Shown here: one piece after another, positions 30,221-63,771 of the stretch
Layout of the letters: every line of letters starts with the position of its first letter
How positions within the stretch are numbered: the first letter of the stretch is position 1
Source of the DNA: Agelas oroides
Taxonomy: Eukaryota > Porifera > Demospongiae > Agelasida > Agelasidae
NCBI GenBank assembly: GCA_949130485.1
Contig: OX422193.1
Coordinates: 6,244,871-6,308,870 of the forward strand
Direction of reading: 5' to 3'
DNA length: 64,000 nt
Made by a program: the position numbers and the translations under genes
The notes under the pieces: model-generated
Seen by the model: only the letters and a program-made list of their open reading frames with translations
What the model was told of the DNA's origin: nothing
Databases searched by the model: none

Positions 30221-31532
30221 CAATTAAACTGGCCTCTTAGTCAGACTTTGCAAACAAAATCGTTACTGCTGGTCATTGTTCATGAACTGTCATGTGATAC
30301 TCATAGTTTACACAGGTACATGCAGTGAACAAACACTACCACCTGCCTGTTTGTGTGGCTACTGCACATTGTTACATCATATTACATAAGCTGTCTATGC
30401 ATCATTGTATGTTGAGACAGTTTGGAAGTAGAAAGATGGAAAGCACTATTGCTAGATTTGATACTAAACTTTAGACATGTAAGGACCCAGTGATCATGAC
30501 ATGCTTCCTGCACAGAGTGTAGGTAAAGGCTAAAGCACATGCACTGAGTCATGAATAATTTCAGCATACTTAAAACCAAAGGAACAGTGTCCATCCCAGT
30601 GTATGCACTATGCTAGTGAGTTTCACTGAGGTTATACCAACAACTGATGATATTGCCATTGTATGTTGAAGGAAGCAACATGTTGTGCAACATGTTGTCA
30701 TAAGTTTTCAACAAAGGCCCACCACCAATATTATTGGTCATGCTGATCATCATGTATGGGCAAGTATGTTAGCTTCTTGGATGGAACCATTGGAGTTGTA
30801 CAGAACCTGTGATTGACCAGTTTTGGCATGAAAGGTGACCTAAAATGTGTTAAATGATTACTCATAAAATAATTATACTGGTGAGGTAGCTCAACACCAG
30901 CCAAGTAATGCTCCATTGATTACATAGATACATGACCACCAGGCGAGATGTTTAAGTTCTTTTTTTATTCCCTGGCCATGGTTTGTACATATAATGTATT
31001 ATAGCAAATGTTTGATATGTATGTAGCAAATGTTTGATTTTCACACTAGCTCAGAGGTGGCTAGTGCTCGAACTTGTGGGCCATGCTGAAATTTGCCATT
31101 TAGTAGAAACAGGATGTCAACTGTAGCTACGTTGGTTCACACTTTTGGGACTGGCAGATCAATGTATCTCAACAATATCCACAACAACACCAGAACCAGA
31201 TCCAACACTCTTCAGTCAACCAATACCTTAGCTGGCTTGCAAATTAATGAGATTAGTTACGTAGCTTACGTGGCAACATGTACTTTGCTTGGAATTTGAA
31301 GACAAATTACAGTTTCAGAATTTATAGCCATCTCTCTATAATTACATATATAAAAGAGCAAACAAGTCACATAATTATGGCTTTGTACATGGGTATATGG
31401 GCAATGTAAACAACAGCGCCGTAGTCAAGGACTTTGACAATTGACTTGCATCTAACACTAGTACATTTGGAATTGTGCCAAATTTTGTAAGGTCTGGTAT
31501 TGGGCATCCACAAATGTGTGGCTTCACACAAA

Positions 31533-31534
<2 letters not shown>

Positions 31535-31587
<53 letters not shown>

Positions 31588-32191: not shown

Positions 32192-33874
32192 TCAGTGAAT
32201 GTACTTATTGTAATAGTCCTCCACAAATCTTTGCTCGTGTAGAAGTTCATCTCTTTCCCTCTTCTTGTACCACTTGGCAACAATGCAAAACAGCCCCAGA
32301 CCAACCACTGTCACAACAATAATGAAAAGATAGAACCAGAAAGCACAAGTTGGGTATGTTACAGGCTGAGACCAAGCATGTGCCCACGTGGTAAGTGTTG
32401 CATCAGCCAGGGCAGATGACAAACCCTGAGCAGAAGCAAATGAAAGTCCAATAATCAGTCCTTTAATAGCATATGGTGTTTGGGCACACAAAAATTCAAA
32501 TAGTGCAGCAAAAAGAATTACTACCTCAATTCCAATAACAATGCCAAGTACAATACTAATCCAGAGATAGTCCATATCCACTACAGAGCTAGATGTACTG
32601 TTCACCACAAACATACACTTCACTGTTGCATTAGTGTGTGCATGTACTACCATATCCACAGATAATGCTACAGAAGCAACTATGATAGTGCCAAATGCAC
32701 CAATTCCAACTCTCTTCAGTGTGCTAGGAATCCAATTCCTAGCTAGAGGATAAATCACAAGCTCATAGAGTGGAATTCCAACTATAGTCACAACAGATGC
32801 AGAAGTGACAAAATCAAGCAGCACATTGTAACAATCTTTACTGTGAGAGAGTTTTCTTTGCTGCTGAAAGTGTGAAGCGAATGTGTTCAATGAAGAATTG
32901 CACAGGGAAAGTGGATAGACAAAGAAACTGATAGCTACACTCACTACAAGAAGCCGAAAGAAAGTCTTCACATCTTCCACCTGTTCAGTGGTAAAGGGTC
33001 CTCCATACTTTGATTTCCCAAAGTCAATACGTGAAGGAATGTCTTCCTCCCAGTATGTCAGTGCACTGCGTCTGGCTGGGTGCTTGTGGGTAGCAGCATA
33101 CTTGAGAACACTATAGATAGATTTAAGAGGATTTTGGCTCACAGGCTCAATCACTAACCAGTTTCGACAGAGAAAGTCAAGGCAAAGAGCAACCGATGAA
33201 ACTGCTACAGCAAAAATCATTGAGATCAAACTAGTTTGGTCACTTTCCATGCCAGTACAGTGCAAGCTGTTTACCAAGTAACCACTGCCTATGCCAGTGT
33301 ACATAGCCCATACAAACCAGTGAATAAAGGAACTTATCTCTTCAGATGATGCTCCTAGCATCTGATCAGTTCCAAATGGAACAGCATTGACAATCACCCC
33401 CGTTGATCCTATAGTCACACATGCATAAACAACTACTACTGAAATATACTTCAGTACATCATGTGGGGATAAGAGGTAAATCATTAGCAAAAGAGTGCCA
33501 CTAACACTCCCCCACCACATGATCCAAATGGAGACCTTCATGACCTTATACCTCCCAACATATACATCAGCTAACCAGCCAGCAAAAACATACAACACAG
33601 CCGTGACAACTCCAGCCACAATGCCAAAGTTATATACCCCCATAGATTTGGAGATCACATCTATGTTCATACTTGCAGTACTGCAGGCCCATGTTAGCAA
33701 GCTCCACACAACCACTAGAACTGCTCCCTTTGATCTCACTCTTCTTGCCCTGCAATGACATGGTTGGATAGAAGTAGGGGCCTTTTGATCACGTGATAGC
33801 AAGCTGTCTGTCTCTCTTAGACTTTTTGGTATTACAGCTCCCAGACAAACTGCAGATTCAGAATTTGTAGCCAT
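32192..33874 (-). CDS. POT/SLC15-type transporter, copy 5 (recombinant hybrid)
   Basis: 560-aa single-exon protein made of two parts. From the start to the SSEEIS segment of helix 5 (33343-33874) it matches the 28523 copy base for base as far as I can see. From there to the stop (32192-33338) it matches the broken copy at 35890, except a 3-base difference near 33263 (YLVNS versus YFAVNS). All transporter motifs are complete, so the exchange produced an intact gene with the first loop of one parent and the C-terminal half of the other. An R-to-S/E change, ATVKCMF, and VVDMDYLWISIVLG characterise the C-terminal part. It is likely functional; the substrate is not deducible. Confidence 0.88.
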   Translation of the reverse strand: MATNSESAVCLGAVIPKSLRETDSLLSRDQKAPTSIQPCHCRARRVRSKGAVLVVVWSLLTWACSTASMNIDVISKSMGVYNFGIVAGVVTAVLYVFAGWLADVYVGRYKVMKVSIWIMWWGSVSGTLLLMIYLLSPHDVLKYISVVVVYACVTIGSTGVIVNAVPFGTDQMLGASSEEISSFIHWFVWAMYTGIGSGYLVNSLHCTGMESDQTSLISMIFAVAVSSVALCLDFLCRNWLVIEPVSQNPLKSIYSVLKYAATHKHPARRSALTYWEEDIPSRIDFGKSKYGGPFTTEQVEDVKTFFRLLVVSVAISFFVYPLSLCNSSLNTFASHFQQQRKLSHSKDCYNVLLDFVTSASVVTIVGIPLYELVIYPLARNWIPSTLKRVGIGAFGTIIVASVALSVDMVVHAHTNATVKCMFVVNSTSSSVVDMDYLWISIVLGIVIGIEVVILFAALFEFLCAQTPYAIKGLIIGLSFASAQGLSSALADATLTTWAHAWSQPVTYPTCAFWFYLFIIVVTVVGLGLFCIVAKWYKKRERDELLHEQRFVEDYYNKYIH

Positions 33875-35186
33875 CAATTAAACTGGCCTCTTAGTCAGAC
33901 TTTGCAAACAAAATCGTTACTGCTGGTCATTGTTCATGAACTGTCATGTGATACTCATAGTTTACACAGGTACATGCAGTGAACAAACACTACCACCTGC
34001 CTGTTTGTGTGGCTACTGCACATTGTTACATCATATTACATAAGCAGTCTATGCATCATTGTATGTTGAGACAGTTTGGAAGTAGAAAGATGGAAAGCAC
34101 TATTGCTAGATTTGATACTAAACTTTAGACATGTAAGGACCCAGTGATCATGACATGCTTCCTGCACAGAGTGTAGGTAAAGGCTAAAGCACATGCACTG
34201 AGTCATGAATAATTTCAGCATACTTAAAACCAAAGGAACAGTGTCCATCCCAGTGTATGCACTATGCTAGTGAGTTTCACTGAGGTTATACCAACAACTG
34301 ATGATATTGCCATTGTATGTTGAAGGAAGCAACATGTTGTGCAACATGTTGTCATAAGTTTTCAACAAAGGCCCACCACCAATATTATTGGTCATGCTGA
34401 TCATCATGTATGGGCAAGTATGTTAGCTTCTTGGATGGAACCATTGGAGTTGTACAGAACCTGTGATTGACCAGTTTTGGCATGAAAGGTGACCTAAAAT
34501 GTGTTAAATGATTACTCATAAAATAATTATACTGGTGAGGTAGCTCAACACCAGCCAAGTAATGCTCCATTGATTACATAGATACATGACCACCAGGCGA
34601 GATGTTTAAGTTCTTTTTTTATTCCCTGGCCATGGTTTGTACATATAATGTATTATAGCAAATGTTTGATATGTATGTAGCAAATGTTTGATTTTCACAC
34701 TAGCTCAGAGGTGGCTAGTGCTCGAACTTGTGGGCCATGCTGAAATTTGCCATTTAGTAGAAACAGGATGTCAACTGTAGCTACGTTGGTTCACACTTTT
34801 GGGACTGGCAGATCAATGTATCTCAACAATATCAACAACAACACCAGAACCAGATCCAACACTCTTCAGTCAACCAATACCTTAGCTGGCTTGCAAATTA
34901 ATGAGATTAGTTACGTAGCTTACGTGGCAACATGTACTTTGCTTGGAATTTGAAGACAAATTACAGTTTCAGAATTTATAGCCATCTCTCTATAATTACA
35001 TATATAAAAGAGCAAACAAGTCACATAATTATGGCTTTGTACATGGGTATATGGGCAATGTAAACAACAGCGCCGTAGTCAAGGACTTTGACAATTGACT
35101 TGCATCTAACACTAGTACATTTGGAATTGTGCCAAATTTTGTAAGGTCTGGTATTGGGCATCCACAAATGTGTGGCTTCACACAAA

Positions 35187-35188
<2 letters not shown>

Positions 35189-35285
<97 letters not shown>

Positions 35286-35889: not shown

Positions 35890-37577
35890 TCAGTGAATGT
35901 ACTTATTGTAATAGTCCTCCACAAATCTTTGCTCGTGTAGAAGTTCATCTCTTTCCCTCTTCTTGTACCACTTGGCAACAATGCAAAACAGCCCCAGACC
36001 AACCACTGTCACAACAATAATGAAAAGATAGAACCAGAAAGCACAAGTTGGGTATGTTACAGGCTGAGACCAAGCATGTGCCCACGTGGTAAGTGTTGCA
36101 TCAGCCAGGGCAGATGACAAACCCTGAGCAGAAGCAAATGAAAGTCCAATAATCAGTCCTTTAATAGCATATGGTGTTTGGGCACACAAAAATTCAAATA
36201 GTGCAGCAAAAAGAATTACTACCTCAATTCCAATAACAATGCCAAGTACAATACTAATCCAGAGATAGTCCATATCCACTACAGAGCTAGATGTACTGTT
36301 CACCACAAACATACACTTCACTGTTGCATTAGTGTGTGCATGTACTACCATATCCACAGATAATGCTACAGAAGCAACTATGATAGTGCCAAATGCACCA
36401 ATTCCAACTCTCTTCAGTGTGCTAGGAATCCAATTCCTAGCTAGAGGATAAATCACAAGCTCATAGAGTGGAATTCCAACTATAGTCACAACAGATGCAG
36501 AAGTGACAAAATCAAGCAGCACATTGTAACAATCTTTACTGTGAGAGAGTTTTCTTTGCTGCTGAAAGTGTGAAGCGAATGTGTTCAATGAAGAATTGCA
36601 CAGGGAAAGTGGATAGACAAAGAAACTGATAGCTACACTCACTACAAGAAGCCGAAAGAAAGTCTTCACATCTTCCACCTGTTCAGTGGTAAAGGGTCCT
36701 CCATACTTTGATTTCCCAAAGTCAATACGTGAAGGAATGTCTTCCTCCCAGTATGTCAGTGCACTGCGTCTGGCTGGGTGCTTGTGGGTAGCAGCATACT
36801 TGAGAACACTATAGATAGATTTAAGAGGATTTTGGCTCACAGGCTCAATCACTAACCAGTTTCGACAGAGAAAGTCAAGGCAAAGAGCAACCGATGAAAC
36901 TGCTACAGCAAAAATCATTGAGATCAAACTAGTTTGGTCACTTTCCATGCCAGTACAGTGCAAGCTGTTTACCGCAAAGTAACCACTGCCTATGCCAGTG
37001 TACATAGCCCATACAAACCAGTGAATAAAGGAACTTATCTCTTCGGATGATGCTCCCAGCATCTGATCAGTTCCAAAAGGAATAGCATTAACCATCAACC
37101 CTGATGATCCAATGGCAGTACCTACGTAAGCAACTACTACTGAAACATACTTCAATGCATCATGTGGAGATAAGAGATGAATCACCAGCAAAAGAGTGCC
37201 ACAGACACTCCCCAACCACATGACCCAAATGGAGACCTTCATGACCTTATATCTCCCAAAGTATACATCAGCTAACCAGCCAGCAAGCAGATACAACACA
37301 GCAGTAACCACTCCATTTATAATTTCAGCTGTAGTTTGGAAGATCACCTCTACATTTGCAACACTTGCAGTACTGCAGGCCCATGTTAGCATGCAAGCTC
37401 CACACAATCACTAGAACTGCTCCTTTTGATCTCACTCTTAATTCTTGCTCGATATCCTGGTCTGCAATGAGATGGTTGAATGGAAGTACGAGCCTTTTGA
37501 TCACGTGTTAGCAAGCTCCTTAGATTGTTTGGTCTTACAGTTCCCCGACAAACTGCGGATTCAGAATTTGTAGCCAT
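35890..37577 (-). pseudogene. Transporter copy 6, disrupted near its N-terminus
   Basis: From LLTWACSTASVANV (about 37395) to KYIH at 35890, the frame is open and shows every family motif (GWLADVYFGRYKVM, IPFGTDQM, SKYGGPFTTEQVEDVK). Upstream, two 4-base insertions relative to intact copies (TGCA near 37391 and AATT near 37440) shift the frame. They separate it from the remaining N-terminus MATNSESAVCRGTVRPNN (37386-37577). The dileucine motif is also lost (NNLRSLL). A protein starting at an internal non-AUG site would lack the start of helix 1. It is most simply a recent pseudogene. It donated the C-terminal half of the 32192 hybrid. Confidence 0.82.
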
Positions 37578-40329: not shown

Positions 40330-42024
40330 TCAGTGAATGTACTTATCATAATAGTCCTCAACAAATCTTTGCTCGTGTAGAAGTTCATCTCTTTCCCTCT
40401 TCTTGTACCACTTGGCAACAACCCCAAACATCACTAGACCAACCACTGTCACCACAATAATGAAGAGATAGAACCAGAAAGCACAAGTTGGGTATGTTAC
40501 AGGCTGAGACCAAGCATGTGCCCACGTGGTAAGTGTTGCATCAGCCAGGGCAGATGACAAACCCTGAGCAGAAGCAAATGAAAGTCCAATAATCAGTCCT
40601 TTAATAGCATATGGTGTTTGGGCACACAAAAATTCAAATAGTGCAGCAAAAAGAATTACTACCTCAATTCCAATAACAATGCCAAGTACAATACTAATCC
40701 AGAGATAGTCCATATCCACTACAGAGCTAGATGTACTGTTCACCACAAACATACACTTCACTGTTGCATTAGTGTGTGCATGTACTACCATATCCACTGA
40801 TAATGCTACAGAAGCAACTATGATAGTGCCAAATGCACCAATTCCCGCCCTCTTCAGTGTGCTAGGGATCCAATTCCTAGCTAGAGGATAAATGGCAAGC
40901 TCATAGAGTGGAATTCCAAGTATGATCACAACATATGCGGAAGTAGCAAAATCAAGCAGCATATTGTAACAATCTTTACTGTGAGAGAGTTTTCTTTGCT
41001 GCTGAAAGTGTGAAGCAAACATGTCCAATGAAGAATTGCACATGGAAAGTGGATAGATGAAGAAACTGATGGCTACACTCATTAAAAGAAGCCGAAAGAA
41101 GGTCTTCACATCTTCAACCTGTTCAGTGGTAAAGGGTCCTCCATACTTTGATTTCCCAAAGTCAATACGTGAAGGAATGTCTTCCTCCCAGTATGTCAGT
41201 GCACTGCGTCTGGCTGGGTGCTTGTGGGTAGCAGCATACTTGAGAACACTATAGATAGATTTAAGAGGATTTTGGCTCACAGGCTCAATCACTAACCAGT
41301 TTCGACAGAGAAAGTCAAGGCAAAGAGCAACCGATGAAACTGCTACAGCAAAGAACATGGACACCAGAATAGTTTGGTCATCTCCCATGCCAGTACATGG
41401 CAGAAAGTTTACTATGTAACCACTGGCTATCCCAGTATACATAGCCCAGACAAACCAGTGAATAAAGGAACTTATTTCTTCAGATGATGCTCCAAGCGTT
41501 TGATCCGTGCCAAAAGGAACAGCATTGACAATCAGCCCTGTTGATCCTATAGTCACACATGCATAAGCAATGACTACTGAAATATACTTCAGTACATCGT
41601 GTGGAGATAAGAGGTGAATCATTAACAACAGGGTGCCACAAATACTCCCCAACCACATGAACCAAATGGAGACCTTCATGACCTTATACCTCCCAAAATA
41701 TACATCAGCTAACCAGCCAGCAAACACAGATAACACAGCCATGACAACTCCAGCGATAATTTCAAAGTTAAATACCCCCATAGATTGGGAGATCACACGT
41801 ATGTTCACACTTGCAGTACTGCAGGCCCATGTTAGCAAGTTCCACACAATCACTAGAACTGCTCCCTTTGATCTCACTCTTCTTGCTCGATATCCTGGTC
41901 TGCAATGACATGGTTGGATAGAAGTAGGAGCCTTTTGATCACGTGGTAGCAAGCCGTCTGTCTCCCTTAGATTGTTTGGTATTACAGTTCGCAGACAAAC
42001 TGCAGATTCAGAATTGGTAGCCAT
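40330..42024 (-). CDS. POT/SLC15-type transporter, copy 7 (conversion mosaic)
   Basis: 564-aa intronless protein with ETDGLL, CHCRPGYRARRVRSKG, the ISQSMGVFNF first loop, GWLADVYFGRYKVM, VPFGTDQTLG and the tail KYIH. It is a patchwork. About 40475-40797 (VVHAHTNATVKC through ADATLTTW) is identical to the copies at 32192 and 35890, while DNA on either side is closer to the 28523 copy (VVGLVMFGVV; AYVVIILGIPLYELAIY). Around 41120-41350 (EEDIPSRIDFGKSKYGG) it again matches 32192/35890, including the unusual F for L. The frame is intact. The final helix/loop combination is unique within the array. Confidence 0.88.
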   Translation of the reverse strand: MATNSESAVCLRTVIPNNLRETDGLLPRDQKAPTSIQPCHCRPGYRARRVRSKGAVLVIVWNLLTWACSTASVNIRVISQSMGVFNFEIIAGVVMAVLSVFAGWLADVYFGRYKVMKVSIWFMWLGSICGTLLLMIHLLSPHDVLKYISVVIAYACVTIGSTGLIVNAVPFGTDQTLGASSEEISSFIHWFVWAMYTGIASGYIVNFLPCTGMGDDQTILVSMFFAVAVSSVALCLDFLCRNWLVIEPVSQNPLKSIYSVLKYAATHKHPARRSALTYWEEDIPSRIDFGKSKYGGPFTTEQVEDVKTFFRLLLMSVAISFFIYPLSMCNSSLDMFASHFQQQRKLSHSKDCYNMLLDFATSAYVVIILGIPLYELAIYPLARNWIPSTLKRAGIGAFGTIIVASVALSVDMVVHAHTNATVKCMFVVNSTSSSVVDMDYLWISIVLGIVIGIEVVILFAALFEFLCAQTPYAIKGLIIGLSFASAQGLSSALADATLTTWAHAWSQPVTYPTCAFWFYLFIIVVTVVGLVMFGVVAKWYKKRERDELLHEQRFVEDYYDKYIH

Positions 42025-42365
42025 CAATTAAACTGGCAACTTGGTCAGACTTTGCAGACAAATTGTTACCGCTGGTCATTGTTTATGAACGGTCATGTGA
42101 TACTCATAGTTTACACAGGTACATGCAGTGAACAAACACTACCACCTGCTACTGCACATTGTTACATCACATTACATAAGCAGTCAATGCATCATTGTAT
42201 GTTGAGCCAGTAGAAAGATGGAAATCAGAAGGCACTATTGCTAGATTTGATCAACTTTGATACTAAATTTTACAATGACAGCAACATGTAAGGACTCAGT
42301 GATCATGACATGCTACCTGCACAGAGCGCAGGCAAAGGCTAAAGCACACTGAGTCATGAATAATT

Positions 42366-44261: not shown

Positions 44262-45941
44262 TCAGAGAATGTACTTATCATAATAGTCCTCCACAAATCT
44301 TTGCTCGTGAAGGAGTTCGTTTCTTTCCCTCTTCTTATACCACTTGGCGACAATCCCAAACACCACAAGGGCAACCACTGTCACTAGAATAATGAAAAGA
44401 TAGAACCAGAAAGCACAAGTTGGGTACATTACAGGCTGAGACCAAGCATGAGCCCATGTAGTAAGTGTTGCACCAGTCAGGGCATATGCCAAACCCAGGG
44501 CAGAAAATGGGAGTCCAATAATTAGCCCTTTCATGTTGTATGGTGTCTGCGAACATAAGAACTCAAATAGTGCAGCAAAAAGAGTTGCTAGCTCAATTCC
44601 AATAACAATATAAAGTGGAATACCAATCCAGAGATAGTTAATGTCCACTACCATCCTAGATGTACTGTTCTTCACAAACATACACTTCACTGTTGCATTA
44701 GTGTGTGCATGTCCTACCATATCCACAGATAATGCTACAGAAGCAACTACAGTAGTGGCAAATGCACCAATTCCAGCCCTCTTCAGCGCACTAGGAATCC
44801 AGTTCCTAGCTAGAGGATAGATGGCAAGCTCATAGAGTGGGATTCCAAGAGTTATCAACAAAAAAGGAATATCGAACAAATCAAGAAGCACATTGTAACA
44901 ATTATCACTGTGAGAAAGTTTTTGTGGCCACTGAAAGTGTGAAGCAAATATGTGCAATGATAAATTGCACAGGGAAAGAGGGTAGAGGAAGATACAGACA
45001 GCTATGCTTACTACAAGAAGCTGAAGGAAGGTCTTCACATCTTCCACCTGTTCAGTGGTAAAGGGTCCTCCATACTTGGATTTCCCAAGGTCAATACGTG
45101 AAGGGATGTCTTCCTCCCAGTATGTCAGTGCACTGCGTCGGGCTGGGTGCTTGTGGGTGGCAGCATACTTGAGCACACTATAGACAGATTTAAGAGGGTT
45201 TTGGCTCACAGGCTCAATTACCAACCAGTTCCAACAGAGAAAGTCAAGGCAAAGAGCAACTGATGAAACTGCTACAGCAAAAAGCATGGACACTAGACTA
45301 AGTTGGTCATCTCCCATACATGGCAAAACGTTTACCATGTAGCCACTGGCTAGGCCAGCATACATAGCCCAGACGAACCAGTGAATAAAGGCACTTATCT
45401 CATCAGATGATGCTCCTAGCATCTGATCAATTCCAAATGGAATAGCATTTACAATCAACCCTGTTGATCCTATGGTGACACATGCATAAGCAACAACCAC
45501 TGAAATGTATTTCAGTGAGTCAAGTGAAGACAAGCTATAAATCACCAGCAACAGAGTGCCACCAACACTCCCCCACCACATGACCCAAATGGAGACCTTC
45601 ATGACCTTATATCTCCCAAAGTATACATCAGCTAACCAACCAACAAAAACAAACAACGCAGCAGTAACCACTCCATCAACAATTTCAAAGTATAATTTTC
45701 CTCCTAGAGATTGTGATATCACCTTTGCATTCATATTTGTGGAACGGCAGGCCCATGCCAGCAAGTTCCACACAACTACCAGAATCACTCCCTTTGATCT
45801 CAGTCTTCTTGCTCGGTATCCTGGCCTGCAACGACGTGATGGGATGGAGGTAGTAGCCTCTTGGTCATGTGGCCACAAACCATCTGCCTCGCTTAGAGTG
45901 TTGGCACTTTCAGTTTGTAGAAAAACAGAATTTGTAGCCAT
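44262..45941 (-). CDS. POT/SLC15-type transporter, copy 8 (most divergent intact member)
   Basis: 559 aa from the ATG giving MATNSVFLQTES. An upstream in-frame GTG extension of 16 codons (from 45989) is not supported by the other copies. Motifs are complete: GWLADVYFGRYKVM, IPFGIDQMLG (I for T), KSKYGGPFTTEQVEDVK, ELAIYPLARNWIPS and SQTPYNMKG. The N-terminal sorting motif is altered to EADGLW, so the second leucine is lost. The first loop is ISQSLGGKLYFEIVDG, two residues longer. Helix 8 reads LFDIPFLLITLG, unlike any other copy. The 5' flank beyond the ATG does not share the conserved block of the others. It stands at the array edge and probably represents an older lineage. Confidence 0.88.
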   Translation of the reverse strand: MATNSVFLQTESANTLSEADGLWPHDQEATTSIPSRRCRPGYRARRLRSKGVILVVVWNLLAWACRSTNMNAKVISQSLGGKLYFEIVDGVVTAALFVFVGWLADVYFGRYKVMKVSIWVMWWGSVGGTLLLVIYSLSSLDSLKYISVVVAYACVTIGSTGLIVNAIPFGIDQMLGASSDEISAFIHWFVWAMYAGLASGYMVNVLPCMGDDQLSLVSMLFAVAVSSVALCLDFLCWNWLVIEPVSQNPLKSVYSVLKYAATHKHPARRSALTYWEEDIPSRIDLGKSKYGGPFTTEQVEDVKTFLQLLVVSIAVCIFLYPLSLCNLSLHIFASHFQWPQKLSHSDNCYNVLLDLFDIPFLLITLGIPLYELAIYPLARNWIPSALKRAGIGAFATTVVASVALSVDMVGHAHTNATVKCMFVKNSTSRMVVDINYLWIGIPLYIVIGIELATLFAALFEFLCSQTPYNMKGLIIGLPFSALGLAYALTGATLTTWAHAWSQPVMYPTCAFWFYLFIILVTVVALVVFGIVAKWYKKRERNELLHEQRFVEDYYDKYIL

Positions 45942-46172
45942 CAATGCAACCACTTTACAAAAACTTGCAGATTGAGCCACGGACGCCACACCCCCATATG
46001 CATAGAAGGGTGTGGCTACGCGACTGCATTGGGGTGAGAGCTGCGACTTTGGCTCAGAAAACTAAGCTAGAAAGTCTACGTGCATTCAGCTAGTCACATG
46101 ATCAAGTACTTTGGGAAAGGGCGGCACCATTACAGCTCGGGAACGTTATCCAGATTATGGACAACATGCCGA

Positions 46173-51370: not shown

Positions 51371-52440
51371 GGTTGCACATTTATAGATACTTGGTTTCTA
51401 AACGAAGCGCACCCACGTGGTAACACTCGGAAGGGTCTCAACGTATTTAGGTGAGTTTGCTGCATGTGGGACTAGATAGCTCATAAGTAGAAATACTAAT
51501 ATCAAAAGCAAAGTGTGCTAACTCGACTCCCAACTTACCCTCGCCCCCTTTCATGCAGATACATGCTTTTGCAAATGCTGTAGAAACAATGTACCGATTG
51601 TTGTGCTGCCATACACTGATTTACTTTCGCCTTCATCCTTTTAGTCCTCCCCTGAGTTTATAAAGAAATATCTACTAGTTCTGTTGTTCCAATGATATCA
51701 AAGCTGAAGCTGGACAAAGAGTGTTTTCCCCGCTGTCTGTGTTAAATTAGACCAGTGCTGTATGAATGCTGCTTAAAAGCTGCATTCAGCCTAGCTTAGA
51801 CTTTGCTAGCCTTCTAGCTTAGCTGCTTCCATGCTGGAAGGCAGCAAAGGCCTGGGAATAAGGCAGCATTACCTCATGCAGTCACCTTGCATCAACATCA
51901 TTAATCCATGCATGAATTTCAGCCGGCAATACATACTTGCATACTTCTACATAATCCACAGCAACCAGACTGCTTGAGTGATGGCAAGGCGGCACTTTGA
52001 AACAGTGGTCCATCGAAAAGGTAGGTTTGCATCACAGAGCCATGCATATGACCAGGATCTTATGAGCAGTGCAGCGCTACTCATAAGCTCCTGATAAAGT
52101 GTACTTTCATGTTATACGTCACTACAACATTTTTCTGTACAGACTAAGTATTGCAGATGCCAGATATTAACAGCAACAGTCTCGTAGCTGCATAACAAGT
52201 GGATCATGACTTTTGGGTGAATAATGGATTGTAGTATTCTAACTGCTATGGGTGCTTGCAGTATCAAGTGGTTGCTAAAATAACCATGTGCAACTTAGCG
52301 AATGTTTTAGCTGACCACAAGGAGCACACGTTATGAGCCTGCAGGATGAGTTCTCTACTGAATTTGTCAACAAGCTTGAGAAAGTGGCGCTATAGACATC
52401 AAACACCCTCCAGATGAAGTATTAAGGAAACTGTTAATAA
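51371..52440. other. Intergenic region upstream of MRPL21
   Basis: It contains the MRPL21 promoter by position. On the plus strand, 51982-52020 reads ATG GCA AGG CGG... (MARRHFETVVHRK) and runs into a good GTAGGT donor, a possible first exon of a divergent gene, but I cannot find its continuation. An imperfect ~18-bp palindrome lies around 52058-52097 (CTTATGAG...CTCATAAG). Confidence 0.35.
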
Positions 52441-52442
52441 GT

Positions 52443-52795
52443 ACAGTGGACCCTCGCTTATCCAGCTACAACGGGACCAGACCATGGCCAGATAAGCGAA
52501 ATAGCCGGATATGTGAACCATCATGCAAATAGTGTCTACAATGTATATTAGCACTGCTGTTTCTTTTCCTGTCATATTATCCATTGTGGTGCAAACAATC
52601 GTATTTCAACTTCTTTAGGCTTTGGACAGTTGAAATTCTGGCATCTTCGCGTGGTTAGTCCTGCCTTCAAACGATCTAGTATAGCTACTTTGCTCCGTGC
52701 ACACCATGGGCATTAAATAGAATGCGTGGAGATCGAGGCCGGATAATCCGAGCAGCCGGATAGTTGAGGGTCGGATAAGCGAGGTTCCACTGTAA
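52443..52795. mobile_element. MITE with CAGTGGACCCTCGCTTATCC termini
   Basis: TACAGTGGACCCTCGCTTAT at the left is mirrored by GGATAAGCGAGGTTCCACTG at the right, with a second inner inverted copy of the same motif (CCGGATAATCCGAG). The length is ~350 bases. The termini are of the pogo/Tigger type and differ from those at 47305. No coding frame. Confidence 0.75.
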
Positions 52796-53109
52796 ACTCT
52801 CAGAAGAGTTGACCATCTTGATCTTGCTTCTCAGTTGGCTCCTGCAGAAACAAATCTCCCCTTCTCTGATTCCTTGCAGATGGGAGTTTCGTCCTTGCTT
52901 CTTCTGCCTTGACAGGCCGGACGTGGGATGGTACCCTCTGGGTGTTCTCAAGCATGCAAGACTTTGACCAGTGCCCCAATCTTGACATGGTTGCCACCAG
53001 AACCACAGCAGGCATCACTGATGTTCTGTGGTGAGGATGTGTTACAATGTACCTCATAATACTGTCTTAGAAACCTGCCCACTGATCTTAACCCTCTGAA
53101 TGCAGTGAC

Positions 53110-54706
53110 CATATCAGAGAGTCGGTAGACTCTCTATGTAGGGATGGCGCCGACGCGCAATATATGCAATACTTAAGCAAAAGCCGTATAACTTCACCAC
53201 AAACACGCTAAAAGCTTATTTAAGCGCCCAGTCGTCCTCTTTGAGTGCCTTTGTGATCAGCAAGACTCATATAAGTGGCCAAAAGCCATGCGGAAGACAG
53301 CTAAACTCAAAAGTGTGCGATAGCAAAAGTGCCATTTTTCGTATTCTTTCTTTCTTTCTTGTTACGACTTTTGTTCAAACAACGATATCTCGCAAAATGT
53401 TTAAGTACTCACCGTCATTTTAGTACGAAACTGATGCTTATCACAGCGCGGAGCTCTACGACCACTCAGCGTCTTCATAGCTTCAAATTCACCCTGGTCA
53501 ATAAAAGCCATTCACAACACTCTGAGGCTGCTGTCCGTTGCTTAGGACGCCATTTTCTAATTTTGTACGCATGTGCACACGAAGTCTCATTCCCAGACCA
53601 AAGACCACGGTCATTGGTCTGGAAGCGAGAGTACACAAGTGAGCGGGCATGACTGTAGTCTCGTGACCTGGAAACGAGACTAGCATGACTGGCACTGTCT
53701 TTTCCCCCAGCGGCATTGGGCAAGGCTTATGAACACCACGTTGGTAAGGCGCTGCATTCAGCTGCCTACTTGCAGCTACACTAAAAATAGCCTACTCACA
53801 GCTTTAGTGAACTGTAAAGCTAGGATGGTCAGTTGTCAGTATGATAGTTTTCTGTGCTGCAGCTGGTCAGTCGTCATGTGATTGACAACTGAATCATGAA
53901 ATTGGTTTCACAAAGTTTGGTACGGAGAGTGGTTGGCCCTTCAGCAGGTTCTAGCTGGCTATATTGCACATAATTATTACATGCCTGTAACTACTACTAT
54001 TAAAACTGCCAATGCCGTTTCAAGTTCTGGTGTTGTGGTTACACTTGAAATATTCTTCTTTGGCTTAGGTCTAACTGTAACTGAGATTAACATCAAAAAA
54101 GTACAGAAACAAGACTTAAAAAACATTAAATGTAAAAAGATGTAGGGATAGCATGCCAAAAAGTATGCAAACAAGGTAGGGATAATGCAGGAAAGCAAAG
54201 GTCAACATATTGGCAAAGCCCCATCCCTACATCTTTTTCACACTACAGCTGATGCAATGCTGCTAGATCATATTTATAGCCTCGTTCCTGAGCCGGCATG
54301 TGGGAGAAGGAAAGTGGCCTGGGGACGAGGCTAAAACCATGCCATGTACTTTAACGACACTTATATCATAAATCTGCAGTCTACTCTAACTCACTGCTTA
54401 AGTTGTTGAAGAGGTTCCGTATAACATAATGCTACCAATAGGGTCATACTACCCTTGTTCCCAGGCCACGTGGGAGAAGGAAGTGGCCTGAGAACAAGGC
54501 TACAGCCATGAACTGCCAGTAAAGGTTGTGAACATTTTAAGAAGACCCCCATGCACTGTCTAACTGTAGTGTGAAAAAGATGTAGGGATGGGGCTTTGCC
54601 AATATGTTGACCTTTGCTTTCCTGCATTATCCCTACCTTGTTTGCATACTTTTTGGCATGCCATCCCTACATCTTTTTAAATTTTTATTGTTTTTTAAGT
54701 CTTGTA
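53110..54706 (+). mobile_element. Composite dispersed repeat with long hairpin, copy B
   Basis: Second copy of the 24022-25634 element in the same orientation. It has the same order of left-end hairpin, palindromes and long inverted repeat (arms 54109-54248 and 54564-54705). The palindrome at 25253-25293 is missing here, and a second CTCGTGACCTGGAAACGAG hairpin is present at 53660-53686. A further perfect 15-bp inverted repeat, TATATATATGGTCAC (54705-54719 with 54741-54755), overlaps its right end. Confidence 0.8.
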
Positions 54707-54922
54707 TATATATGGTCACATTAAACTTCCCGCCATCACGGTGACCATATATATATGCTCACAACAAGTTTGTGCACTTTCCGCACGGAGCTAAGAAGCT
54801 TAACGAGATTTGAGGGTAGGCCCCTCCATGACAAGTGCTAATGAGGCTAGGCCACACCTTTTGACTAACATCATCGGCTAGAAAGACAGGAAGAGGCAGT
54901 ACTTATTCGCGGGTGATTGTCA

Positions 54923-54986
54923 ATGAGCAGAGAGCTGCCAAACACGAAGCTTTTTCTCGGCAAGCGTTCTCCATATTTTATTTCAG
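54923..54986 (+). other. Possible 5' exon
   Basis: An ATG opens MSRELPNTKLFLGKRSPYFI and reaches TCAG|GTAGGA, an acceptable 5' splice site. It lies on the same strand 0.7 kb ahead of the first certain WDR77-like exon and could be its first exon. No residue pattern confirms this. Confidence 0.25.
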
Positions 54987-55684
54987 GTAGGAGTAATAGC
55001 TTCAAATAATTTGTTAACTGACTGATTTTGTCTGGGCTGTGGGTATTAGGTGAGAAAATTGGTACCTTTCCAACCGCTTCCAGCTAGGATACATAGTCAG
55101 CACAAAATGGCTTCAAACAAGTAGAAATGGCTTACTAGGCACTTATCAACCATTTAGTCCAGCCTATTTACACCCTATCTACACAATTCAAGCCATTAGC
55201 ACAGCCAAAGACTTGTTAACACGCTTGTCACTGCTTGTCACTTCTGACTGTTAGAGTAACGAAACTGTCATGAATATAATTACTTCCCGTTCAAAGCAGT
55301 CAAGATAGATGCAGAGGTGAAGCTTATTTGAATGTACTCCTCAGACACATACAGCAGTGTATAGGCAATACAAAATAGTAGCAGTCTGTGAGCTGCTTGA
55401 TGTAATAGTTCAAGGACCATGAGTTGTACACAGAGACTCATAATACTGCAATATTGCATTGTACAACTTTGGCATGTCAATAATCTAGCTAACCACCATT
55501 GTTATATCTATATGGTTCAAATTCACTGAACTAGAGGCTGACCTAGAGAGCATTCTAATACCTGGTAGGTAATAAGTAGAATGGATTCAAGTACCATGTC
55601 TTCTTCTCTCAATCTGTTGTTCAAGTGCACATTGTCATGCAAACATCCAGCTGGAAATATGATAGATCCATGTTCTTCCCACAG

Positions 55685-58600
55685 GCTTCCGGATGAGGCC
55701 AACTTTCTTCTTTCCTCAGATTCTGGTGAGCTGGAGCTATGGAACTGTCATCCTCCTGGGCACACACTAGAACACAAGACCTCCCTTGGTTCGCACGATG
55801 ATATGGCACTTACTGTTGGCCTGCTGGCAGGAGGGCAGAAAGCTATTAGTGGTGGAGCTGATAGGAGGTACGCACTGTGTGTGGGCATAACTAGCAAGGC
55901 TGTGTTTTTGACTAACCTTGCATAGGAGGTATGCACTGTGTGTGGGCATGACTAGCAAGGCTGTGTTCTTGACTAACCTTGCATAGGAGGTACGCACTGT
56001 GTGTGGGCATGACTAGCAAGGCTGTGTTCTTGACTAACCTTGCATAGGAGGTACGCACTGTGTGTGGGCATGACTAGCAAGGCTGTGTTTTTTACTAACC
56101 TTGCATATGAGGTACGCACTGTGTGTGGGCATGACTAGCAAGGCTGTGTTTTTGACTAACCTTGCATAGGAGGTACGCACTGTGTGTGGGCATAACTAGC
56201 AAGGCTGTGTTTTTTACTAACCTTGCATAGGAGGTACGCACTGTGTGTGGGCATGACTAGCAAGGCTGTGTTTTTTACTAACCTTGCATAGGAGGTACGC
56301 ACTGTGTGTGGGCATAACTAGCAAGGCTGTGTTCTTGACTAACCTTGCATAGGAGGTACGCACTGTGTGTGGGCATGACTAGCAAGGCTGTGTTCTTGAC
56401 TAACCTTGCATAGGAGGTACGCACTGTGTGTGGGCATGACTAGCAAGGCTGTGTTTTTGACTAACCTTGCATAGGAGGTACGCACTGTGTGTGGGCATAA
56501 CTAGCAAGGCTGTGTTCTTGACTAACCTTGCATAGGAGGTACGCACTGTGTGGGCATGACTAGCAAGGCTGTGTTTTTGACTAACCTTGCATAGGAGGTA
56601 CGCACTGTGTGTGGGCATGACTAGCAAGGCTGTGTTCTTGACTAACCTTGCATAGGAGGTATGCACTGTGTGTGGGCATGACTAGCAAGGCTGTGTTCTT
56701 GACTAACCTTGCATAGGAGGTATGCACTGTGTGTGGGCATGACTAGCAAGGCTGTGTTTTTGACTAACCTTGCATAGGAGGTACGCACTGTGTGTGGGCA
56801 TGACTAGCAAGGCTGTGTTCTTGACTAACCTTGCATAGGAGGTACGCACTGTGTGTGGGCATGACTAGCAAGGCTGTGTTCTTGACTAACCTTGCATAGG
56901 AGGTATGCACTGTGTGTGGGCATGACTAGCAAGGCTGTGTTTTTGACTAACCTTGCATAGGAGGTACGCACTGTGTGTGGGCATGACTAGCAAGGCTGTG
57001 TTCTTGACTAACCTTGCATAGGAGGTACGCACTGTGTGTGGGCATGACTAGCAAGGCTGTGTTTTTGACTAACCTTGCATATGAGGTACGCACTGTGTGT
57101 GGGCATGACTAGCAAGGCTGTGTTTTTTACTAACCTTGCATATGAGGTACGCACTGTGTGTGGGTATGACTAGCAAGGCTGTGTTCTTGACTAACCTTGC
57201 ATAGGAGGTACGCACTGTGTGTGGGCATGACTAGCAAGGCTGTGTTCTTGACTAACCTTGCATAGGAGGTATGCACTGTGTGTGGGCATGACTAGCAAGG
57301 CTGTGTTCTTGACTAACCTTGCATAGGAGGTACGCACTGTGTGTGGGCATGACTAGCAAGGCTGTGTTTTTGACTAACCTTGCATAGGAGGTACGCACTG
57401 TGTGTGGGCATGACTAGCAAGGCTGTGTTCTTGACTAACCTTGCATAGGAGGTATGCACTGTGTGTGGGCATGACTAGCAAGGCTGTGTTCTTGACTAAC
57501 CTTGCTCCTAGGCTTAAGGTTACGGGTACAAGTTCATGAATAAAATTAGTATGTCAAAAACTTGCCTGTATAACTTTTCCTACATAAAAGCTACTGGATA
57601 TTTACAACAGCCAGTCATTACAGAGGGCATTCAGCTATAGTTCAGCATAATACTAACTTCGCTACAGTACACAGTCGAGTGACAGCAGGCGGCTGCTCGG
57701 TGGAGTACGAGTACAAATTTCTACGTCAGTTCGCTCGCGTTGTTGCACACAGAATGCCGTATACCAGCGTTTTATCTATTTGTACGACATCGCTGCAGGG
57801 CCACACGAAGCGTTTTTGAAAGAAAAATTTTCCAGTTCGCCGTAGTTTGTTTTCGAAGTCTCTCGGTACCGGTTTTTCGAGTATTCAGTAGCCTTTCAGC
57901 CACTGCCGCTCAGTTCTGTTCCGAGATATGAGCAAAAACGCTTCGTGTGGCCCTGCAGTGAGTTGCTCTGGCTCTGTTTAAGCCATAAATAGCAGCTAGT
58001 TCCTCCTACTGTCGTAGTAAACTGACGTAGAAGTTTGTACTCGTAATCCACTGAGCAGCCGCCTAGTGTCACTTGACTGCGTACTGTGGCAAAGTTAGTA
58101 TTATGCTGAACTGTGGCCGAATGCACTCTGTAGCGACTGGTTGTTGTAAAAATCCGGTAGCTTTTTTGTAAGAAAAGTTATACAGGCAAGTTTTTGACAT
58201 ACTAATTTTATTCATGAACATGTACCCGTAACCTTAAGCTTGTTGCGTTGTGACATCAGCTATGTGTGTACATGTATATTGCTGTATCTCAGTTATTTGT
58301 ATACTGATAATAGCTAGTAGACTGGTCTGCTGTTGGTATGCCTTTGAGGTGAAGTGATGATGCTCAAATTTTCAGAAAGTGTCTGTGAAACATTTTTACG
58401 AGAGGAAAGATCTCGGGTGTCGTTTTGGCAAGTCGTATTTTGTGGCACAAAGTTATATACCCTTCGTTTTGATATGAAGATTGTCTGAGTTGATAGCACA
58501 AATCAAAATGACAGATGCTGGGTAGGCTAGCTAGGTGAAAGCTGAAATCATGTCTTGGGTGATACTTGTACACATTGATGTCATTGTTCACAACCACATG

Positions 58601-61600
58601 ATACAGATTGTCATTTGACACCCACCTGCTAGTTTCACATACTTAAATCAATGTGGAACAATGGTTACCAGGCCCATTTAACCAACTGCAAGCAATATCC
58701 TGAAAACTGTAAAGCCAGAAGTTGTATTTCTCTTGATCCATTATGTAGGATAATTGTCTGGGATATTGAAAGCGCAAAGTCAATAATTTCTTACAGGGGT
58801 GAGTTTTTTTCCTTTTGATAAATGTTATGCATATGCATAGCATTACTTGCCTAATTAATCATACAGGACATAGTGACACTGTATCATCTATTGCAACACA
58901 TCCATCATCAGAAAACTGCTTTATCTCCACTTCACAGGTCAGTATCATCATTGAGTATATATAAGTATTACGACGCAGTTTCATCATTAGTTCTATCTGA
59001 CTTTGTACCTTACAAACTTTAGATCATGTAAACTGATGCAGTCTAGACCTTCCAACTATTGATTACTTACAGTGTCCAAAAACAGTCAGGAAGGCCTAGT
59101 CCATTTTGTCATGTGACAGACATCAATGTCTACCTAGTTTGACAGAAGGGGGCCTACATTCAAGCACTGAAGTCCCGAACATTTGTGAACCGAGAAGCGG
59201 AAAACTTTCTGTTCAGGACGAGAATGCATGCACAAAATGTATTCTTTTGATCGCCCTGCTCAGTATGCCTAGGTAGACATTGACATCTCCCAGGCTTTCT
59301 CCCATTTTCGCATAATGTCTGGATGGTGGGGAAGACCCTGGGATGAGGCTAAGGTGTTGATGCTTGTTAAACTCTAGATGTTTGACTTCTGACCTTCTGT
59401 TTCACTGTTGTGCTACTTGTTGTGAGGCTGAAATCAGCCGTACATTTACTACCTATGTGTAAAGATGGTGGAGTATATATTGGTATACTAGTGTCTACTA
59501 GTGTGTGTTAATTGTAGGCACGAGAAATGATGTTGCATTTGTGGGTGTCTGTTGTGTAGGATGGCTCGGTACGAATGTGGGATTTGAAAAAGCCAAGAAA
59601 ACCTGCTAGCAAATTTGCAGGTTAGTGATGCTTGGATTATGCTACTCAGTCCTTTTATCAGAGAACCATACTTGGCATTTCTGAACTCTCCTCTCTAATG
59701 TACACATGCAGCATGCAACAATATTCTGCACACTTGTGTAAGATGGTGTTCTACTGAAGAAAATTCTGTGGCTTTAGGTGAGATGTAATGCATACAGTGG
59801 CAATTTAAGCTTCTTGTGATGTACACGTTTGTTTGGACTTATTTCACTGGAGTACACACCACAGATTGGAAAGTTTTTGTTTTAAACATATTTTGTGAAA
59901 AATTTTGTGGCGTTAAGGTTTTATTTATCTATGAATTTCACTATGGATGAGCTGTGGAGCATGTTACATTCAGGAGGGTTTTGTGGCTCTGGCGAACATA
60001 TTTATATCCATGTCTTGTCAACAAATACTTTCCTATGAAGGGGAGGTCTAGTGGAATGAAGAACTGGCTGGCTATCTGGCTGGTTGGCTGGACAGCTTGA
60101 TGAATAGACAGATTGATGGACAGACACACTGATGGACGGATGAATGGACAGGGAGACGGATGGATGAATGAATGGACACGCAGATGAATGGATGGATGGA
60201 GGAATGATGGATGGATTGATGGGCGGGAGAATGGACACGGAGACAGATGGATGGATGAATGAATGGACACAGATGAACGGATGAATGGATGTGTTGATGG
60301 ATGGATGGATGGGTGGATGGATGGATGAATGAATTGATGGATGTTTAAAAATGAGAATGTCCCCATCTACAGTATTGGGCTCTGCTACATTACATTTGGC
60401 CATGCATACAGCGATATCCACAATACCCAGCATATTGGTAGCTTGTTTTTGTACACATGTCCATACTGTGTTGTAAGCCAGAGCAGCAATAGCAAGACCA
60501 TGCAGCCACATTACTCTAACTATAGGGTCTGAGACTGGGCAGGTGGAGGTGTTTGACATGAGGTGGACGGGCTCACTTCTCATGACCTATCAACCACACT
60601 GCAGGGCTATCCACAGACTGGCATTTGCACCATGGGAGTAAGTTAGATATGGGTTGGAGAGGAATACTTGCACCAACAGCGCATAAAAATGGGCTTGTGC
60701 CACCCGTTCTTATGCACTCTTGTTGCACAGTATATAGACTGTTGTTATGAAGGTGAAGTGTATGCCTATGTATACTAATGACTATGTTATACCATAATGC
60801 TTTGGTATACTGATTATGCTGCGGTGTAGCTAAAGATCACATGTCATGTATTGTAAAATCTTTCACCTTGGCTCTTAGCTCTGGCCTTCTTGCCAGTGTG
60901 TCAGATGATGCTACTGTATGGATACAATCGCTTAACAACAGGAAAAAAGTGTAAGTTAGAACCAAGTAAGTTATTTATATCCTCTCAAAACCATATAACC
61001 AAGCCTTTCCCCATCTCATTTTTTACATTATGGAATGTATATATTTACATGTACATGTACTATAATCTAGACAGAGAGAATAATAATTATAATGCCCATT
61101 TCAGATCAGCAGTACCTACTGGTGAACTACTGTAGTTCTTGTTGGGAGCTTTTCGAGCTTGTACAGACCTACAGTGGCAGCTCGTCATCTTGAATCCCAT
61201 TCTATATTGATGAGGACAGAAGTAGTTAGTTAATGCTGTACCTCTCTATTCTCTTAGGCTAGCTAACTCTGCCCATGTGGACTTTGTGCATGGATTGTCC
61301 TGGCATCCAACAGAGCCTTACCTTGTGACATGCAGTTGGGATGGACAGGTCCTGCATCATTCAGTGGACATCAGTTCCAGCAAAGGTGATGTCAGAATTG
61401 ATGTACTAGAAGAATGTACCGTAAGTTCCCGAAAATATACCCCTTTGAGCAGACACCCTCCCCCATCTTTAGCCCCAAAGTTCTTACATAGGGTATTTTT
61501 CCCTCGTGTAAATGCCCCGTGTCGAGCGTCTTCTGGGCATGCTTTTGGTGAGCTTTTGATTTAGCTCCGTTGTCGACTGTATTCGGAAACGCGTACACAC

Positions 61601-63771
61601 AAAATTACTATATATAGCCTCGTTCTCTGGCCACCGCCAAGTTTTATGTTGCTTGCACTGGGAATGTGAACTTACGCGGGGCCGTTCCCTGTCACCACTG
61701 ACGATGCAAGTTGCTTCGATGCCTCTTGGCTTAGTATGAACACAAGCACCGCTGATTTCCTGTAGTACATGTTCATCGAAGCTGCCGTTTTCTTCCAGAA
61801 AGCCATGGCAGTTGTAGTGATTGTCGTCCTCGTGCATATTAAAGATTGCGAGGAACGGAGGGAGGGGCGTATGCAGGAGACGAACTGAATATTCGAGCAA
61901 ACGCCCCCTCCCCACTTTTGCCTCAAAGTAGTGTGCAAAAAAAAGGGGGGGGGGGGGGGGTCATATTTTCGGAGCCTACAGTACAACATGGTGGGATGAG
62001 GGTCAGTGAGTGAACAGTGTCTTCAGAGCAAGACTGTTTGGGTTGCTAACCTTCACCAGCAACATTGTACACCATAGCACACAGATCATGTATGTAGACT
62101 GGCTTGTCACTGTCTGTGATCAACCCAAGCTGCACGCTTCCTCTGAGGTCCTTACATGGGTACGTTAGAGGGATTGCCATGGTAGCTTGCCATGAAAGTG
62201 TACCACACCATGCAGTCAATTGTCTTGCCTTGGTAGCTACTATGTCTGAGTACTCTAGCTGCACACAGGCTAAGTCTGGCCTCCTGCTGACCTCTGCTGA
62301 CCTTGAGCTCAAAGCTGGGCCTGTCATGCTTAGTTATTAATTGAGGCAGCTTAGAGAAATCAGAGGAACCACAACATTCACTGTAAGTGTGCAGTTATTG
62401 ATTCACACTCACAAGCCATGAAACTATACTGCTAGTAGAAGGATCTCTATTGCCCCTGTGTTTTGTAAGCATATGGCTCCAATTCAGTTTCTCATCAGGT
62501 GCTTCCCCCGCACACAATGCAGGCGGGCGGGTATTACCATTATTCACCCAACAGATATTTCTCACGAAAAAAGTAGCAAAACGTGATAGCAGGATGATCA
62601 TCTGTCATTATCCGCCATTGTGGAAGGTTTTTTTTGGATGCTGTGCAGTAGACAGACACATTTGTTAGCATTACGTTCACCGCTATGCTCATGACACCTA
62701 TCACTAGTTCCTTTAACGTCACTTATATGTGCAAATAAAATAAATTCTATCGCAGACAATCCATGCGGGTGGTCGATGAGAAACTAATAATCAATAAATT
62801 GGGGCCTAAGATTTAACTACTTATTTTCCTTAAACCCAATAGGCACAGAATTACCAACAGGTGGATGGACGTGTGTATATTACAAGATTTCCATAGATTG
62901 CACATAGTGTGAGGATCACTCAGGCTCTCCCACAATAAGTAACAGTTTTACCACTATGAATTGTACAAGGCTGTCCCCCTTCTTAGTGGGAGAGTGGGGG
63001 AATGAAGCTAAATTAAGGGTAGACACAACTTAATTGTGTATGGGCATGCACGGAAGCCTGCCCATGTAGTTTGGAGCTCGTGGTAGACTGTTGTAGTAGA
63101 TTCTCAGAGTGGGAGAGCCTGGTACAGTTTATCACGTGCATAATGTCAAGGGTAGACACAACTTAATTATGTATGGGTGGACTAAGCCGGGCGCCCATGC
63201 ATGTTTAAGCACAAGCATTTTCAAGACTACCATAGTCTTCTTTTTGGGTAGATATGGCTTTAGTGTGTTTGTCTTTGCAGTCAGCGATATATAGTTACCC
63301 ATGTAGAACTAGTCGATTTCTTGAGTCAGTGTCAATAACTTAAACAATATTAACAACACTAGCTTACAACACGCAACAAATCACAAAATTTCCTGCCATT
63401 CAGCCTGTCAGGTGCTCCTTAGCGGGAAGAGCCTGCATGGAAATGAGACAACAAACATTTAGAAAGTGAACTGAAGAGAAATTAATACATGGACATGATG
63501 CGTGAGTAGTATACATGGATTGCAAATGAGGCTGGATGTCATATGTGGATTGGCATAATTAATGTATGTGCTTGGTGTTATGCAGTTAATTGAGCACCAT
63601 CTGTTAGGGAGGGGGAGGATTCATTGAGTATATGAACTGTCAACTGTGTAGGTACCGTGAAGTTTAGGCTTAGGTTTGTTCACAATGGTCATTCCAACAG
63701 GTACTGAACTGAAACAAGCTGAAATTGGCACACAAATGGAACAAGATCAGGAAGAGGAACATACTTCATGA
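55685..63771 (+). CDS. WDR77: WD40 protein resembling methylosome protein 50 (WDR77/MEP50)
   Basis: Coding exons, all bounded by AG/GT: 55685-55867, 58749-58798, 58867-58937, 59560-59620, 59712-59778, 60526-60637, 60879-60950, 61258-61385 and probably 63701-63771. The product reads LLSSDSGELELW, HDDMALTVGLLAGGQKAISG, GADRRIIVWDIESAKSII, GHSDTVSSIATHP, STSQDGSVRMWDLKKPRKP, SETGQVEVFDMRW, LLASVSDDATVWI and AHVDFVHGLSWHPTEPYLVT. It ends with CSWDGQVLHH. The order and wording follow WDR77, the PRMT5 partner that presents substrates for symmetric arginine methylation. The last exon gives an acidic tail (MEQDQEEEHTS, stop). Odd: exon 59712-59778 joins the next one a base out of phase; one A fewer in its A5 run would restore STEENSVALGSETG. 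The N-terminal ~60-80 residues were not located. The 58749 and 61258 exons are certain; the last exon less so. Confidence 0.8.
55861..57505. repeat. 61-bp minisatellite, 27 units, inside a WDR77 intron
   Basis: The unit ATAGGAGGTACGCACTGTG... to ...GACTAACCTTGC repeats 27 times in direct orientation (1645 bases = 27 x 61 minus a 2-base deletion in the unit near 56532). Units differ at a few positions (GTACGC/GTATGC, CATGAC/CATAAC, TTCTTG/TTTTTG/TTTTTT, ATAGGAG/ATATGAG). The first unit overlaps the end of the coding exon, so each copy includes the AGGAG|GTACGC splice junction. Confidence 0.97.
57512..58237. mobile_element. Foldback element next to the minisatellite
   Basis: The left arm (57512-57835) and the reverse complement of the right arm (57935-58237) match closely: CTTAAGGTTACGGGTACA at the tips; TAGTATGTCAAAAACTTGCC; and ACGAAGCGTTTTTG near the centre. 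The centre is at about 57885. No ORF of note. A target duplication was not obvious. It lies wholly within the WDR77 intron. Confidence 0.85.
60060..60345. repeat. Degenerate GGAT/GAAT tetranucleotide repeat
   Basis: About 280 bases of GATGGATGAATGAATGGACA-type units with variants, within a WDR77 intron. The His/Ser/Pro-rich minus-strand frames over it (59941-60583) are repeat artefacts. Confidence 0.95.
61419..61991. mobile_element. MITE at the 3' side of the penultimate WDR77 exon
   Basis: The left end TACCGTAAGTTCCCGAAAAT ATACCCC is mirrored by the right end, whose reverse complement reads TACTGTAGGCTCCGAAAATA. The length is ~570 bases, with a 14-base G run just inside the right end. The left tip supplies a GTAAGT donor at 61421 and, if read through, a 47-codon tail ending at a stop (61562-61564). 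Confidence 0.7.
62046..62327 (-). CDS. Unrecognised 93-codon frame, antisense in a WDR77 intron
   Basis: ATG at 62327, stop at 62046; a candidate GT donor (GAAG|GTTAGC) lies just before the stop. The product (KDLRGSVQLGLITDSDKPVY, IHDLCAMVYNVAGEG) looks more protein-like than the neighbouring frames but matches no family I know. It could be an exon of an antisense gene or chance. Confidence 0.25.
   Translation of the reverse strand: MTGPALSSRSAEVSRRPDLACVQLEYSDIVATKARQLTAWCGTLSWQATMAIPLTYPCKDLRGSVQLGLITDSDKPVYIHDLCAMVYNVAGEG
62330..63700. other. Intronic sequence, nothing coding recognised
   Basis: Contains a direct repeat of GGGTAGACACAACTTAATTG at about 63018 and 63151. The phrase GGGAGAGCCTGGTACA at 63112 also occurs at about 5700. 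No gene seen. Confidence 0.4.

Follow-up and report, generated by a model that had tools for sequence, protein, structure and literature searches.

An intronic minisatellite that repeats the donor boundary of a WDR77/MEP50 intron in the sponge Agelas oroides

The WDR77/MEP50 locus and its surroundings

The window, i.e., the whole stretch of DNA that was analysed, comprises 64,000 nucleotides of Agelas oroides (G000:C11:6244871-6308870) and originates from an assembly of 259 Mb in 141 contigs; positions are counted within this window. On the + strand, the WDR77/MEP50 coding exon A is located at 55685-55867 and ends with ...GCTGATAGGAG, as indicated by an in-frame splice and by the alignment to MEP50 chains. 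It is followed by an intron of 2881 nt (55868-58748, +) that bears a tandem array, and the intron borders, the donor GAG/GTACGC in the first unit of the array and the acceptor TATGTAG/G (the slash marks the splice boundary), were assigned by junction homology. Exon B (58749-58798, +; ...IIVWDIESAKSIISYRG) and exon C (58867-58937, +) were assigned by MEP50 alignment. Exons A, B and C and four downstream exon pieces join in frame, and with one additional upstream exon piece they constitute a partial WDR77 model of 288 amino acids. This model matches Xenopus MEP50 (4g56_B) with an E-value of 6.6e-45 over residues 1-270 (54-342 in Xenopus) and the human MEP50/WDR77 chains with 2.4e-40 to 4.1e-40, while the best match outside MEP50, a WD40 protein, reaches 4.4e-28. 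Judged from this collinear best match ahead of other WD40 proteins, the host gene is WDR77/MEP50, which encodes a methylosome protein, and the exon that the sequence-only reading had called WDR77-like is thereby confirmed. At the junction of exons A and B, ISGGADRR/IIVWDIE shows an ungapped alignment with Xenopus MEP50 that runs through the splice, so that the joining of the first donor to the acceptor at 58748 represents the conserved splice.

An 85% identical copy of 58382-58978, encompassing the intron end with its acceptor and exons B and C, is found on contig C3. Exon A and the array were not matched in the 17,001 bases around this partial copy, and it is therefore no guide to the ancestral state of the array. 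At this locus (L072, contig C3:9600414-9600997), an array made up of diverged repeats, AAACAGGCTTGCACGAGC..., comes after the partial WDR77 copy. In the window, the WDR77 model is about 20 residues short between exons D and E compared to MEP50 (59621-60525), and a short exon may have been overlooked there. Another WDR77 intron contains a degenerate GATG/GGATGAAT repeat tract at 60091-60343.

Inserted in the intron just 3' of the array is a foldback (MITE-like) element of 724 bp (57514-58237, +) with TTAA at both ends and arms of about 220 bp that are 90% complementary; the TTAA ends presumably reflect a piggyBac-like target. The family is large, with 300 candidates at first look, 40 of which were scored, and full-length matches being 91-99% identical to the copy in the window, which suggests that the element was probably active recently. 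Further away, the window contains eight long single open frames of 505-599 amino acids (764-2458, 6278-7945, 14944-16635, 28523-30223, 32192-33877, 35890-37407, 40330-42027 and 44262-46061), plus fragments, which by eye are similar to one another and resemble multi-pass membrane transporters. For the one of the eight that was tested, 28523-30220 on the minus strand, no Pfam match was obtained at E 0.001. The segments 30994-31586 and 34648-35284 share the same minor repeats at a constant offset of 3654 bases, which suggests a recent tandem segmental duplication, seemingly including one such open frame. An open frame of 562 amino acids at 8177-9865 contains a reverse transcriptase domain (RVT_1, E 1.6e-34) and probably belongs to a non-LTR retroelement.

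The minisatellite and its splice-like signals

Tandem Repeats Finder places the array at 55861-57505 (+) with a period of 61, 27.0 copies, 97% matches and a score of 3066, and splitting it by phase resulted in 27 units arranged head to tail, all of them 61 bp long except unit 12, which has 59 bp. Twelve distinct unit sequences occur, unevenly placed; the mean pairwise identity of the 61-bp units is 0.97, and eight columns vary, including two that are due to a single deletion. Unit 1 opens with ATAGGAG, which are the final seven bases of exon A, directly followed by the donor GTACGC. The donor GAG/GTAYGC is present in all 27 units, as GTACGC in 21 and as GTATGC in six, and ATATGAG replaces ATAGGAG in units 5, 21 and 22. 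Most of the earlier description of the array, namely a 61-bp unit straddling the WDR77 exon/intron boundary, 27 near-identical donors and the unit variants GTACGC, GTATGC and ATATGAG, is thus borne out; its start, previously put at 55855, has to be moved to 55861.

The units also carry signals of the opposite kind. A branch-point-like CTAAC is found in 27 of 27 units, and a TAG that is a candidate acceptor lies three nucleotides 5' of the donor in 23 of the 26 later units, with TAT at this place in units 5, 21 and 22. The boundary between units reads TTGACTAACCTTGCATAG-GAG-GTACGC, and the duplicated segment therefore contains both a donor and an acceptor as sequence candidates. The typical unit may accordingly be described as a candidate mini-intron of 58 nt plus a candidate micro-exon of three nucleotides, GAG. 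The first candidate mini-intron (55868-55925, +) extends from the donor GTACGC to CTAAC-CTTGCATAG and recurs in array phase; the TAG at its end occupies 55923-55925 (+), and the first candidate micro-exon (55926-55928, +) is located between this TAG and the next donor. Adjoining the 3' end of the array, TCCTAG (57506-57511, +) scores best (9.0 bits) among the 86 AGs of the remaining intron, and its use as acceptor of an exon would lead, upon translation, to a stop after nine codons. The sequence-only reading had envisaged a single acceptor at 58748 behind all donors: a conserved acceptor is indeed located there, but the acceptor-like TAGs in the later units speak against its being the only candidate.

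Scoring of the splice sites in each unit, as proposed earlier, was performed with a small model trained on 23 introns from the same genome, namely 18 myosin candidates and five WDR77 introns positioned by eye from homology. Among 39 myosin intron pairs, 22 were available with full sequence, of which 18 were kept at a score >2 in a generic starting matrix and four were dropped, so that the reference set is biased upwards. The donors of the array score 7.5-7.8 bits, more than 11 of the 23 reference donors in a leave-one-out comparison, and are therefore mid-range rather than weak. The unit TAGs score 6.6-8.3 bits (above 8-11 of 23 reference acceptors), compared to 7.1 bits (above 9 of 23) for the conserved acceptor at 58748. 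An AG/GT acceptor exactly at the unit donor scores -1.9 bits, above one of the 23 references. As background, 269 donors as strong as that of the unit were collected, leaving out the loci containing the array and counting repeated stretches once; 13 of these have an equally strong acceptor 0-9 nt upstream, and one of the 13 also has a CTRAY, a count made post hoc, after the unit had been seen.

The array occupies a single place in the assembly. The exact 13-base unit pattern occurs at 18 forward places in the whole 259-Mb assembly, all inside the array, and at no reverse place, with the reversed pattern as a control giving 2 and 3 places. A 122-bp query of two units returned 13 matches in the same assembly, all inside the array, in a DNA search that skips very common words. 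As the unit is confined to one locus of the assembly, membership in a dispersed repeat was rejected, and in the 25-base flanks of 19 other copies of the foldback element (one flank being N) no array letters were seen by eye. A coding reading of the array was also rejected, since the reverse-strand frames are mostly of 53 amino acids, with a maximum of 93 around the 59-bp unit. The same applies to an RNA gene: Rfam gave no match at gathering score in 52000-62500, and one or two consensus units fold no better than shuffled sequences (z-scores -0.32, 0.36 and -0.17).

Use of the repeated sites and competing explanations

The array is best explained, and probably so, as a young and essentially neutral intronic minisatellite that is spliced out with the intron from the first donor. 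It would have originated in a tandem duplication of the last seven bases of the exon together with the first 54 bases of the intron and would have grown to 27 copies via slippage or unequal exchange. WDR77 mRNA would be formed by joining the donor at 55867/55868 to 58748, and the array would be lost with the intron. The array would be tolerated as the distal donors would yield early-stop transcripts, and as a splice from a donor to a later TAG would leave a similar donor and an open frame with an additional GAG, i.e., an additional Arg. A unit identity of about 97% implies that the array is either recent or homogenised. Its intronic position, its single place in the assembly and the ungapped MEP50 match obtained with the first donor are in agreement with this explanation. 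Furthermore, one of six substituted columns falls on a splice-critical position, with 12 of 61 columns being critical (P(<=1) = 0.66); as substitutions are not depleted at critical columns, there is no sign of selection on the splice sites between units, in a comparison of low power given the few variable columns. Against it stand the donors and TAG acceptors of the units, which are not weak, and the combination of donor, acceptor and CTRAY, which is rare (1 of 269 background donors). That the array is probably neutral is what we infer, rather than observe, from these data.

Among the alternatives, a frame-safe splice ladder is the strongest, albeit an unlikely one. Here, donor 1 would be spliced recursively to a later TAG, GAG/GTAYGC would serve as new donor, and the series would end at the acceptor 58748. 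In silico, joining a donor to an internal TAG further along the array leaves GAG and a fresh donor, adds one Arg per step and keeps the frame, and products with one, two and five GAG remain open. The resulting mRNAs may therefore contain zero to several additional GAG (Arg) at a place that, going by WD40 folds in general, is presumably the b-c turn of one of the repeats. The regular placement of TAG and CTAAC in the units and TAG scores on a par with that of the conserved acceptor support such a ladder, and 309 of the 333 donor/acceptor pairs in the array, the tail acceptor 57511 counted, are at least 68 nt apart. This value is the shortest of 85 introns measured or estimated in this genome: 39 myosin pairs (minimum 69), 41 kinesin pairs drawn from 91 of 110 matches (minimum 68) and five WDR77 introns (minimum 68), the lengths of the pairs having been estimated from hit distances and profile overlap with an error of some bases. 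Pairs across two or more units clear this floor, but introns confined to a single unit mostly do not. To the nearest internal acceptor the intron would be 58 nt for 22 donors, 56 nt for one, 60 nt for one and 119 or 180 nt for the three donors preceding units without TAG, and a mini-intron of 58 nt is thus shorter than every one of the 85. In addition, the A of CTAAC is just 10 nt away from the end of the AG, and the tract 5' of the TAG contains 12 pyrimidines in 18 positions in the commonest unit form, compared to 76% in the reference set. In a model built from the myosin introns alone the TAG acceptors fall to 4.3-6.2 bits, though the conserved acceptor also drops, to 4.6. Micro-exons of three nucleotides are difficult to recognise, and the additional residue is not needed in MEP50 relatives. 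An extended, self-erasing form of the ladder, in which some two dozen near-identical mini-introns with GAG micro-exons between them are removed to a variable extent, resulting in a stochastic run of Arg in one WD40 turn of WDR77 with any array length being tolerated, is improbable.

A further alternative, which extends the earlier proposal by the stop, is that the array would act as a regulator by unproductive splicing, with distal donors rivalling donor 1, stop-containing transcripts being formed and the length of the array tuning WDR77 output; this we regard as unlikely. The 27 near-identical donors of mid-range strength would suit such a role, as would the outcome of their use: in silico, 26 of 26 distal donors lead to the same stop, at codon 130 in the partial model. 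The stop is the same for all of them because the first additional module already contains the in-frame TAG at 55923-55925, i.e., the TAG that is also the candidate acceptor. As one TAG, within the portion of the unit that stems from the exon, accounts for it, no selection is required to explain it, and no constraint was detected among the substitutions of the units. The presence of this stop in every distal isoform also means that the 61-nt modules are unable to diversify the protein, and the idea that distal donors add useful modules of this length finds no support in the 26 model isoforms. Transcripts from distal donors would be unproductive and, by extension, prone to nonsense-mediated decay. 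Finally, a copy number inflated or collapsed by the assembly at the repeat is very improbable, as the 12 distinct unit sequences are unevenly spread, as expected of a real array, and the array is flanked by WDR77 exon and intron sequence, even though it is known from one assembly.

Relation to known systems and significance

In human IFI6 (6-16, G1P3), a minisatellite repeats the donor at an exon end, two downstream units are used and three mRNA species are formed (PMC4526556); the minisatellite with multiple donors is credited to Turri et al. (1995; cited in PMC2572611, PMC4526556). The unit of WDR77 likewise carries a donor and starts at the exon end. The IFI6 unit reportedly has 12 nt, so that distal donors keep the frame there, in contrast to the 61-nt unit of WDR77 with its stop in 26 of 26 distal isoforms, and most WDR77 units additionally hold the acceptor-like TAG.

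UBC and VCX3A were described to contain tandem arrays of dual-specific splice sites with introns that are multiples of the unit (Duan et al., 2024, PMC10809524). A repeat unit with possible donor and acceptor function is common to both cases, the signals in WDR77 being read from the sequence. However, the UBC repeat is coding and uses one AG/GT for both roles, whereas the WDR77 array is intronic, its AG/GT is a poor acceptor (-1.9 bits) and the plausible acceptor AG is located 3 nt upstream.

Intron gain through a tandem duplication that crosses a boundary was reported for potato RdRp (Ma et al., 2016, PMC4974935), and the same paper also mentions fission-yeast genes with several 24-bp duplicates (PMC4974935). 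As in potato, the duplicate in WDR77 spans an intron/exon boundary and supplies both sites of candidate introns; it differs in that the donor side is duplicated, in 27 copies, and in that the introns are candidates only. In C. elegans, intronic minisatellites were linked to complex splicing (PMC4039745). In Drosophila, ratchet points with juxtaposed AG/GT mediate recursive splicing in long introns (PMC8605326), the acceptor being next to a donor such that one splice leaves a new donor. The WDR77 array may resemble this arrangement: TAG and donor are three nucleotides apart instead of juxtaposed, a splice to the TAG would still have a donor downstream of it, and the sites lie in a tandem array within an intron of 2.9 kb. 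The W-repeat of Epstein-Barr virus consists of 3-kb tandem units, each with an acceptor and a donor, with coding exons that are used; it resembles the WDR77 array, with its candidate sites, in having both per unit and differs in its viral origin, its unit length and its exon use.

Among the titles listed by the literature searches, none was recognised as describing this exact anatomy. Donor minisatellites and boundary duplications are already known; what appears to be new here is an intronic array of a donor boundary in which three bases separate an acceptor-like TAG from the donor. The 27 near-identical donors, together with 23 candidate acceptors inside the array, provide a natural series in a conserved gene that is suited to studying the choice among near-identical donors, which is hard to do in natural genes, and to asking if a mini-intron below the length floor is spliced when repeated. 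If only the first donor is used, the array would constitute a plain example of an intron sheltering an expanding repeat. It may also be an intermediate of intron gain via tandem duplication of a donor boundary, i.e., the mirror image of the potato case.
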